Positions 26,543 to 28,391 of a stretch of DNA of 31,817 bases are shown in pieces (positions within the stretch are counted from its first letter, which is position 1; each line of letters begins with the position of its first letter). Source of the DNA: Campylobacteraceae bacterium. GTDB taxonomy: Bacteria; Campylobacterota; Campylobacteria; Campylobacterales; Sulfurospirillaceae. A model generated the notes under the pieces. The model made no database searches. It had not been told where the DNA came from and saw nothing but the letters and a program-made list of their open reading frames with translations. The stretch is from contig JALUMJ010000094.1 in the NCBI GenBank assembly GCA_027040375.1, positions 1 to 31,817 on the forward strand. The letters are read 5' to 3'. A program made the position numbers and the translations under genes.

Positions 26543-27013
26543 TTATAAATAGCCCTCTTTTTTAAAATAATTTATAACTTCTTGATAAACTGGTCGTTTA
26601 AAATACGCAACCGTATCAAATATCTTTTTTCTTTTTACAAATTTGAAATCATCAAATTCTGGATGTTTGGTATCTAATTTTATCTTCGCATCATTTTTTA
26701 ATTTTACTAAAAAATAAGTCTGACTCTGTCCATCAAATGGATACATTCTTTTAGCTATGGTTTTAGGGAAATCATATCTTACTTCCTGCGGATACTTACA
26801 AAGTATCTCTATTTTATTTGTCCCAATTTCCTCTTCTAGCTCCCTATAAAGTGCCTCTTTTGCACTCTCTCCCTCATCGATTCCACCTTGTGGAAATTGC
26901 CAAACATCTTTTATGTCATTTCTTCTAGCTATGAAATATTCACATACAAAAGGATATTTGCTAGATAATATCACAGCAGCAACATTTGGTCTGTATTTTT
27001 TTATCTCATCCAT
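26543..27013 (-). CDS. rppH: RNA pyrophosphohydrolase (Nudix)
   Basis: A 156-residue Nudix hydrolase with a complete Nudix box (residues 43-65, GGIDEGES...REXXEEXG). Features typical of RppH/NudH are the N-terminal YRPNVAAVIL, VWQFPQGGIDEGE and the C-terminal FDDFKFVKRKKIF. RppH removes pyrophosphate from the 5' end of triphosphorylated RNA and so starts decay by RNase E or J; dinucleoside polyphosphate hydrolysis is the alternative activity. It is the promoter-proximal gene of the ten-gene leftward operon. Upstream of its ATG a weak leader region includes TAATATTATATC, a good -10, which lies in the left arm of the large palindromic element. Confidence 0.93.
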   Translation of the reverse strand: MDEIKKYRPNVAAVILSSKYPFVCEYFIARRNDIKDVWQFPQGGIDEGESAKEALYRELEEEIGTNKIEILCKYPQEVRYDFPKTIAKRMYPFDGQSQTYFLVKLKNDAKIKLDTKHPEFDDFKFVKRKKIFDTVAYFKRPVYQEVINYFKKEGYL

Positions 27014-27036
27014 ATTTTATCTTTCATTTATTTTGA

Positions 27037-27044
27037 TATAATAT
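27037..27044 (-). promoter_or_regulatory. Candidate -10 region of the rppH-lysC-...-cmoA operon
   Basis: Read leftward, GTAATATTATATC contains a TATTAT/TATATC -10-like box, 24 or more bases before the rppH ATG. It is inside the outer arm of the palindromic element. No upstream gene reads into this operon, because hemW is divergent, so a promoter is expected here. The box was identified by eye from AT-rich sequence. Confidence 0.35.
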
Positions 27045-27305
27045 TACTTCACCAACTAAATACACCAATTTTTGAAAAACAGAGACTTGGTGAGATGTGA
27101 ACAGAAAAATTTGTAGGACTAGCAATAGCTAATTCAAGAATTTTTCTGTTTGCAGATTGCCAAGTATCTGTTTTCCCTTCGGGTGCTTTAGTTTTGCCCA
27201 TATACTTCGTTAGATTCATTCAACTTAGCTTTGGCTAAGCCTTCATAAATCTGCCTCGTCTATGAACAAAACTAAAACATCAAAAGTTGATGTATTTAGT
27301 TGATG

Positions 27306-27320
27306 GAGTAATAATATCAA
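27306..27320 (+). promoter_or_regulatory. Candidate -10 region of hemW in the right arm of the palindrome
   Basis: The right arm reads GGAGTAATAATATCAA towards hemW and provides TAATAT-type -10 sequence about 20 bases before the ATG at 27336. The same motif faces outward in the left arm towards rppH. The leader that would follow is short and has only a weak ribosome-binding site. The assignment is inferred from composition and position. Confidence 0.3.
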
Positions 27321-27335
27321 AAAAGTGATTTGTAA

Positions 27336-28391
27336 ATGCTTATATATCTCCATATTCCATTTTGTGATAGCAAATGCCATTATTGTGCTTTTAACTCTTA
27401 TGTTGATAAGTTTGATTTAAAATCTTCTTACATGCAAGCTTGTGTGAAGCAGTTAATATATGAATTAAGTATTTTTAAGCCAAAGCCAAATAGTATAAAA
27501 TCTCTTTTTATAGGTGGAGGAACACCCTCTACAGTTAATCCTGAGCTTTATTTTGAATTTTTTAAAATCATCTTGCCATATTTAAAAAAAGATGCAGAGA
27601 TAACTAGCGAAGCAAATCCAAACTCTGCTACAAAGAAGTGGTTAAGTGGAATGAAAAAACTTGGTATAAATAGAATCAGCTTTGGCGTTCAAAGTTTTAA
27701 TGAAAAAAAATTAAAATTTCTAGGAAGAAATCACAGTAAACCACAAGCCATAAAAGCTATCAATCATGCAAATGAAGTAGGTTTTACAAATATATCGCTT
27801 GATTTGATTTACGGAACAAAGATGGATACAAAAAAGCTTTTGCAAGATGATTTAAAAATAGCTAAATCATTGCCTATCAATCACATCAGTGCTTATTCTC
27901 TTACGATAGAAAAAGATACACCTTTTGCGAAAACTCCTCAAGTCGCAATAGATTCGATAGGGCTTGCAAAAAAGTTTACAAATGACATACAAAATATTGG
28001 ATTTCCACAATATGAAATATCAAACTTTGGGACATACAATAGCATCCATAATCTTGGATATTGGGAGGGAGATGATTATATGGGTATCGGCTCAGGTGCA
28101 GTTGGTTTCTTGAAAAATAGAAGATTTTATCCATCTAAAAATATAGAAAATTTTATCCAAAATCCGCTTAAAAGAGATATTGAAATTTTAAGTAAAGACG
28201 ATTTACATGTAGAGAAGATTTTCTTAGGGCTTAGAAGCAAAATTGGGATAAATATAGATAAATTTAATAAAAAAGAGATGGAAAATATAAAAATTTTATT
28301 ACAAGAAAAAAAATTAAAAAGAAAGAATAATGTGATTTATAATACAGATTATTTTCTTAGCGATGAAATTTCACTTTTTATAACAAATTAA
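27336..28391 (+). CDS. hemW: Radical SAM heme chaperone HemW-like protein
   Basis: A 351-residue radical SAM protein with the cluster motif CDSKCHYC (Cys10, Cys14, Cys17; CX3CX2C) directly after the family's YLHIPFC start. It then has FIGGGTPS, ANPNS, NRISFGVQSF and LDLIYG, and a C-terminal HemN_C-type domain. The length of about 350 and the short N-terminus fit HemW, a heme-binding chaperone, rather than the longer coproporphyrinogen dehydrogenase HemN (about 450). Older annotations call such genes hemN-like. The ATG is fixed by the N-terminal motif, although the ribosome-binding site is weak. It converges on hemH with a 4-base overlap of the stop codons, placing two heme-related genes tail to tail. 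Confidence 0.9.
   Translation: MLIYLHIPFCDSKCHYCAFNSYVDKFDLKSSYMQACVKQLIYELSIFKPKPNSIKSLFIGGGTPSTVNPELYFEFFKIILPYLKKDAEITSEANPNSATKKWLSGMKKLGINRISFGVQSFNEKKLKFLGRNHSKPQAIKAINHANEVGFTNISLDLIYGTKMDTKKLLQDDLKIAKSLPINHISAYSLTIEKDTPFAKTPQVAIDSIGLAKKFTNDIQNIGFPQYEISNFGTYNSIHNLGYWEGDDYMGIGSGAVGFLKNRRFYPSKNIENFIQNPLKRDIEILSKDDLHVEKIFLGLRSKIGINIDKFNKKEMENIKILLQEKKLKRKNNVIYNTDYFLSDEISLFITN

Follow-up and report, generated by a model that had tools for sequence, protein, structure and literature searches.

The element and its genomic context

The window, a stretch of 31,817 nucleotides from a Campylobacteraceae genome, contained an rppH-like gene on the minus strand (26543-27013; E 1.2e-75 to an RNA pyrophosphohydrolase model) and a hemW-like gene on the plus strand (27336-28391; profile model, E 1.4e-98). 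The two genes are divergent, and the gap between them is occupied by a palindromic element of 268 bp. The element proper, assigned here to subfamily A (a label of this analysis), extends from 27044 to 27311 on the plus strand, ends that were deduced from copies with unrelated flanks and from an empty site. The first-pass annotation of this DNA had described a 288-bp branched palindrome at 27033..27320; the branched palindrome was real, while its extent had to be shortened, the outermost ~10 bp on each side being a palindrome of the target. Thus the extra outer pairing TTTTGATAT / ATATCAAAA is target DNA, and the empty site of the sister genome G007 reads TTTTGATATAATGATATCAAAA.

Between a left and a right TA target copy (27042-27043 and 27312-27313, no strand applicable), which were recognised from the empty site in the sister genome and from a flank survey of 115 elements, the element could be divided as follows. 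The left arm of the outer stem (27044-27075, plus strand) is the terminal inverted repeat and was delimited by inverted-repeat search, fold and double-sided changes. It is followed by hairpin 1 (27076-27174), which carries a module in forward orientation on the plus strand and corresponds to inverted repeat I2. A CCC-TTC-GGG mini-hairpin (27175-27183, plus strand), recognised by its conservation in 35 aligned sequences, forms the centre of the overall dyad. Hairpin 2 (27184-27279) carries the module forward on the minus strand, as indicated by folds of both strands. The right arm of the outer stem (27280-27311, plus strand) was found by inverted-repeat search, and a hairpin of its own, ACATCAA-AAG-TTGATGT, starts at its inner edge. 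This small hairpin, already described in the first-pass annotation, persists as a loop in arms-only copies (e.g. L091). The annotation was equally right on the nested inverted repeats and the mini-hairpin, I1 to I3 being recovered and both strands folding into the branched form, and on the non-coding nature of the element, no ORF of at least 60 aa being present between the flanking genes.

I1 and I2 were the two longest inverted-repeat pairs within 400 bp of each other in the window, and I3 (29 nt) was of the same length as one unrelated pair. RNA folding of the two strands yielded -117.7 and -122.2 kcal/mol (z = -13.5 and -15.1), which none of 100 shuffles equalled, and DNA folding of both strands gave z = -10.7 and -11.2. 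An Rfam scan of the window returned nothing above the gathering score of any family; a permissive scan of the element returned three weak matches of microRNA or sRNA type, the best of which (E 0.019) scored 23.8 bits, the cut-off being 72.

Distribution of the family

The 311-bp region used as query matched four further places in the same genome at E < 1e-6, and 17 of 60 genomes, this one included. A covariance model of the hairpin module, R1, was built from 54 sequences, among them hairpin 2 of the window. It matched hairpin 2 at 27196-27265 on the minus strand (82.4 bits) and hairpin 1, which had not been used for the model, at 27105-27145 on the plus strand (38.1 bits, E 7.2e-9). R1 matches were found in nine of the ten genomes of the genus, the own genome counted, at 2 to 66 matches each and 14 in the own genome, MAG-based copy counts being underestimates for repeats; the R1 search of the complete same-genus genome G009 gave no match. 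Within the order Campylobacterales, R1 matches were present in 136 of 398 genomes and in 39 of 87 genera; among the 343 genomes of good quality, 114 had a match. An exact-pattern scan of 84,980 species genomes retrieved 63 stretches, of which 59 bore a Campylobacterota name and the other four all came from a single 'bacterium' MAG (JAHJJU). Plasmid and phage records yielded no family match, and the hairpin pattern had no exact counterpart in IMG/VR viral contigs.

According to a simple ORF script, 55 of 89 placed copies were located between co-directional ORFs, 20 between divergent and 14 between convergent ones; eight copies overlapped an ORF by more than 100 bp. At one further locus (L053, 1236-1328 and 1343-1610) an element was situated ~15 nt from a selenocysteine tRNA gene. 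The family of dispersed non-coding elements is apparently previously undescribed: among the matches listed from a full-text literature that covered few subscription journals, no description of the 268-bp family was recognised.

Length classes and subfamilies

Parsing by known ends, a procedure that left out divergent subfamilies, gave 132 elements, or 115 after merging. Copies longer than 250 bp numbered 106, of which 104 measured 259-271 bp and 53 exactly 268 bp. The ends of the subfamilies were very unlike each other, starting with TTACTCCACC, AGGGCACCTCTA, TGAGACCACTG, AGTACCTAACC, ACTGACCTTACG and others. They are the least conserved part between subfamilies, which is the opposite of an ordinary MITE family and counts against a MITE-like reading. 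The architecture was shared: an outer stem, hairpin 1, the CCC/GGG mini-hairpin, and hairpin 2 as an inverted relative of hairpin 1.

Shorter forms were also encountered. Nine of the 115 elements were classified by length as single-hairpin forms of 150-175 bp, of which examples were folded. An identical 55-bp arms-only palindrome was present at three unrelated places of G001 (L231:2001-2055, L232:2001-2055 and L233:1967-2021) and is either mobile by itself or the product of recurrent deletion. L060:1501-1871 was chimeric, an A-type left half being combined with a B-type half; the junction apparently lies at a hairpin tip. Solo ends of ~15-40 nt of one end were seen in L257-L264, L272-L274, L276 and L239 (near 4502), several of them immediately upstream of a start codon and directed into the gene; they are possibly leftovers after hairpin deletion, L276 being rather a decayed arms-only copy.

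A single family hairpin was found between urtD and urtE, of a urea transporter, at L352:1501-1568, L351:1501-1569 and L345:1501-1571. These sites span three genera of one family (UrtD of L351 was assigned by position, the other five proteins by model). The conserved position suggests vertical keeping and perhaps a local use. In G352, one of the genomes concerned, another single hairpin was located directly upstream of ureG (L426:1501-1571).

Conservation of the fold and strand preference

Thirty-four elements of six subfamilies and one insert from a 16S rRNA gene (see below) were aligned over their whole length. CCC at element positions 132-134 and GGG at 138-140 were invariant or at least 90% conserved in these 35 sequences. 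Standard pairs made up 93.8% of 3102 pair cells, a figure raised by the prediction of the structure from the same alignment, compared to a mean of 62.9 and a maximum of 64.9 in 200 shuffles. Changes on both sides were observed in 83 of 89 pairs, including all 18 outer-stem pairs counted, and are not independent events since members of a subfamily are related. The 16S insert alone retained 75 of 88 pairs of this structure.

The hairpin module behaved likewise. In the 54 sequences, 95.3% of cells were paired against 73.5% in shuffled alignments (none of 500 shuffles reached the observed value), 19 of 20 pairs had changed on both sides, and pairing fell to 28-41% when the partner was shifted by one to three columns. 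Amid these changing stems, an internal loop, whose 5' side reads AGG and whose 3' side reads AACG, was invariant in all 54 modules. The CTAACG / GTTAG contained in the conserved loop brought integron attC sites into consideration; this candidate was dropped, as the opposite side of the stem is not the complement.

The element is roughly palindromic about the mini-hairpin, with a self-match of 62% to its own reverse complement. One orientation of the module gives the more stable fold, with a consensus energy of -15.35 versus -8.92, and the same holds for 47 of the 54 sequences taken individually. Because the inner hairpins are inverted relatives of one orientation-preferring module, they prefer opposite strands; because the two modules face opposite ways, whole elements have no constant strand preference. 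The plus strand indeed folded better in 19 of 34 elements of subfamily A, 21 of 29 of B, 3 of 5 of C, 10 of 20 of D and 10 of 14 of E. That the choice of strand was unclear, as noted at first, therefore holds for the whole element, and the inverted arrangement supplies the reason. A stem-by-stem wobble count favoured the plus strand for hairpin 1 and was nearly balanced for hairpin 2; it lumped stems and fixed internal loops together and was not relied on.

Insertion sites and mobility

Within single genomes, copies that are 97-99% identical have flanks that bear no relation to each other; the complete genome G176, for instance, has six of them. Empty counterparts were found for two loci. The first is the window locus itself in the sister genome G007, whose hemW is 92% identical in its first 465 bp. 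The same gap was read in eight relatives (G001-G003 and G005-G009), none of which had the 268-bp element, and G004 gave no match. Just upstream of hemW, G006 (L104) displayed a different palindrome of ~60 bp with short direct repeats on both sides, as judged by eye, which is perhaps an arms-only copy of another subfamily. The second empty site corresponds to the L031 locus of G004, which reads TAATTTTA, then the element, then TGAGAAAATTACC. In G003 (94% identical) and G002 (88%), both of which read TAATTTAAGAAAATTACC, the element was absent; at this second site the right copy of TA reads TG and the left flank has one extra T. As far as can be read from sequence, both empty sites fit insertion at TA with duplication of TA, a two-base duplication beside palindromic ends always leaving some freedom of parsing.

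The flanks of the 115 elements displayed TA on both sides in 68 cases, on one side in 38 and on neither in nine. The base adjoining the element was A in 96% and 94% of flanks and the preceding base T in 80% and 79%. The 47 copies without TA on both sides count against the TA-duplication reading. Direct repeats of at least 3 nt occurred in 12 of 115 elements against 9.5 in re-paired controls, those of at least 4 nt in five against 1.5 expected, and those of 6 nt in three against 0.24; the excess in the two longer classes goes beyond plain TA duplication.

The insertion target in the window (27031-27043 and 27312-27322) is itself palindromic, and a -10-like TATAAT adjoins the insertion point. 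Given the position of this motif, hemW transcription may now pass through the element. TATAAT was found beside the element in 9 of 230 flanks (control mean 1.8, maximum 7 in 200 draws) and with one mismatch in 44 of 230 (26.3, sd 4.3), the controls of both counts not being restricted to intergenic DNA; promoter targeting by the element is only suggested by these figures.

The window copy and that in L031 of G004 share 97.4% identity; for the gene adjoining L031, identity between the two genomes is 81%. Each copy has flanks in keeping with the genome that carries it (compared with G007 in the case of the window and with G003 in that of L031), which makes transfer between species likelier than MAG contamination. 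On these sequence comparisons, movement between species is the likelier history of the window and L031 copies.

A probable MITE-like family with a conserved interior

The element is dispersed, multi-copy, non-coding, of narrow length and absent from orthologous sites, and its fold is kept by covariation. It probably represents a non-autonomous MITE-like family of Campylobacterales, ~268 bp long, that would be moved in trans with duplication of TA and whose interior would be selected to fold. A non-autonomous mobile element was among the options of the first-pass annotation, and the test proposed there, a search for dispersed copies with variable flanks, gave such copies, to which the empty sites can be added. 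The covarying stems that it had named as support for an RNA were present as well, both in the hairpin module and in the whole element.

Like the bacterial MITEs described in passages on QMITEs (PMC10969869) and Correia elements (PMC2649163), the family is short and non-coding, has terminal inverted repeats, which were detected in the window element by inverted-repeat search and in the parsed copies, displays a small target duplication, is intergenic, and is expected to give stem-loop transcripts. Unlike these MITEs, its ends vary while its interior is conserved and covarying, its length is held at ~268 bp, it contains a pair of inverted modules, and no autonomous partner was found for it in the places inspected. 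The ends and the TA target suggest a double-strand-cutting transposase acting in trans: an enzyme of the TA-target kind, supplied from elsewhere, would act on the element ends. The interior, with its two inverted module relatives around CCC/GGG, would be selected for single-strand folding.

Covariation might instead be a by-product of hairpin-templated correction (intrastrand template switching), in which case the interior would be functionless and only the ends would matter for mobility. The arms-only form, identical at three places of G001, shows that ends may suffice, and the existence of single-hairpin forms points the same way. Such correction should, however, erase mismatches, and the AGG / AACG loop is nonetheless invariant in 54 of 54 modules; length, too, stays at ~268 bp across subfamilies. 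We therefore regard this account as unlikely, and retain the MITE-like family with an interior selected to fold.

Search for a transposase

None of the three transposase families searched for was a consistent companion of the element. By domain search, DDE_3 was detected in one of 15 genomes, and DDE_Tnp_1 in 7 of 12, G176, G272, G021, G023 and the own genome having none. Y1_Tnp was detected in 11 of 15, with five matches in the own genome and four in G176; a Y1 match was absent from G272, G021, G003 and G004, genomes with many or near-identical copies (G003 and G004 are ~90% complete). G009, G028 and G031 had Y1 matches without any R1 match. As none of the three was consistently present in the carrier genomes examined, DDE_3, DDE_Tnp_1 and Y1_Tnp are not favoured as the partner family.

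An autonomous element with shared ends was likewise not found among the matches listed in the places inspected. Inverted repeats around 21 DDE loci never started like the element ends, and A-type and B-type end patterns retrieved, among the matches listed, only complete elements, arms-only copies and solo ends. A facing end, sought in loci around single ends, was represented only by the far pairs of L237 and L239, whose matches are located inside ORFs and look like chance. Inward sequence read for 330 nt at 12 B-type places held no autonomous partner. Of 16 Y1 loci fetched, a hairpin match was present in one (L372); in this single case, an E-type element of G008 (L372:1022-1293) was situated ~200 nt from an IS200-like tnpA gene.

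These data also bear on a REPIN-like mode of mobility, in which the hairpins would be recognised as single-stranded DNA by a HUH transposase (Y1, TnpA-REP/RAYT-like) and the inverted hairpin pair would be the mobile unit. In sections of PMC3116915 and PMC8266576, REPINs and BIMEs with RAYT are described as intergenic, with inverted imperfect hairpins that form a larger hairpin and with compensatory changes, a description which the present family resembles; two strand-preferring imperfect inverted hairpins are described for REPINs in the first of them. The conservation of hairpins rather than ends and the frequency of Y1 domains, found in the own genome and G176 among others, agree with such a mode. 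Against it, Y1 distribution was inconsistent in both directions, as given above, the flanks show the dyad symmetry (TTA / TAA) that would be expected of a double-strand TA target, the stem had no conserved GTAG beside it, and a hairpin match was carried by only one of the 16 Y1 loci fetched. The hairpins are moreover ~95 nt long, compared to 20-40 nt for REPs, and have no GTAG/CGTC tag. REPIN-like mobility is thus considered improbable, and transposition of the MITE-like family at TA is preferred.

Inserts of the same build in 16S rRNA genes

In the complete genome G109, all three R1 matches at E <= 1e-5 were located inside 16S rRNA genes, of which two (L353 and L366) were assigned by covariance model and one (L432) by 16S motifs. 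Near model position 210 of the Rfam 16S alignment, L353 has 272 nt where the model has 7. The insert is a palindrome of 268 bp (1453-1720 in L353) with an outer stem of the family type, the mini-hairpin and both inverted hairpins. Each of the three loci gave R1 matches of 54.3 and 32.3 bits to the two hairpins in opposite orientation, although no insert sequence of G109 had contributed to R1, and 10 transposase loci included in the same search displayed no hairpin match. TA does not flank the insert, whose arms have no match among the named subfamilies. Judged by where the alignment puts it, the insert would lie in helix 10 of 16S rRNA.

Intervening sequences in Campylobacter and Helicobacter rRNA have been reported since at least 1994, according to references quoted in PMC3335488. 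Extracts of PMC12453555 and PMC11261738 describe Campylobacter 16S genes lengthened from 1512 to 1742 bp that carry structured helix 10 inserts; the latter, a 2024 paper, is quoted as leaving the role of the insert in one species undetermined and as suggesting lateral transfer. Published 16S inserts are strongly folded and have lengths of 230 (by subtraction), 235 and 355 bp, with no ORFs noted in the extracts of PMC12453555, PMC11261738, PMC3335488 and PMC5729898. H. fennelliae carries inserts of 355 bp in 16S and 271 bp in 23S, and 122 bp of its 16S insert resemble an H. canis 23S sequence in opposite polarity (PMC3335488, in part); such a polarity is expected of an inverted module. According to passages of PMC8708148, RNase III excises the 23S inserts of other bacteria.

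The insert of G109 thus links rRNA intervening sequences to the family by its size of 268 bp and its build. A difference is that the window copy is intergenic and not within an rRNA gene. From this one genome, we infer that helix 10 intervening sequences may be family members that landed in rRNA genes; the link, established for G109, is likely for the published inserts. The same extracts of the four papers on 16S inserts make no mention of their belonging to a dispersed genomic family, and among the matches listed in the full-text literature, with few subscription journals covered, none was recognised as connecting the rRNA inserts of Campylobacter with copies dispersed over the genome.

If the MITE-like family is indeed selected for its folded interior, folding most probably takes place as RNA. 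This was chosen over single-stranded DNA since 55 of 89 copies are located between co-directional ORFs, since copies exist in rRNA genes of one genome and since RNase III excises 23S inserts in other bacteria. Where a copy is transcribed, it would fold away and RNase III could trim it, as has been reported for the intervening sequences of rRNA; whichever strand is transcribed, the palindromic layout would offer one module in its preferred orientation, and a compact, trimmed transcript would make the insertion cheap for the host. Strand-wise folding of the whole element, where neither strand was better throughout, counts against an RNA reading. The combined proposal, a TA-mobile DNA selected for its RNA fold, with a transcript trimmed by the host, as the source of the Campylobacter and Helicobacter 16S (perhaps also 23S) intervening sequences, is advanced as tentative, with the balance somewhat against it.

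The reverse order of events was also considered, namely an RNA parasite that is cut from transcripts, reverse-transcribed and reinserted, with rRNA inserts as its home and intergenic copies as offspring. It would account for the shared length and build of the 16S insert, for the better folding of the module on one strand and for polar solo ends reading into genes in several of 12 places (by eye). TA target and duplication at two empty sites fit DNA transposition instead, and of the 89 placed copies, 34 have divergent or convergent ORFs as neighbours, which renders this origin very improbable.

Significance of the family

A regulatory RNA or protein-binding cruciform, another early suggestion, here taken as serving rppH and hemW, would suit the position between the two divergent genes and beside the -10-like TATAAT, but hardly deserves credence given that the element is missing from the locus in eight same-genus relatives, one of which (G006) has a different ~60-bp palindrome, and that copies elsewhere adjoin unrelated genes.

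The dispersed MITE-like family appears here as a small mobile element whose interior, not its ends, is held constant by evolution. Its invariant internal loop predicts a specific binding partner. Being of the same size class and build and having the same covarying hairpin, the 268-bp family gives rRNA intervening sequences a candidate source, an idea that is directly testable. If true, it would join two phenomena that have so far been described apart, a dispersed mobile element and the intervening sequences of rRNA genes.
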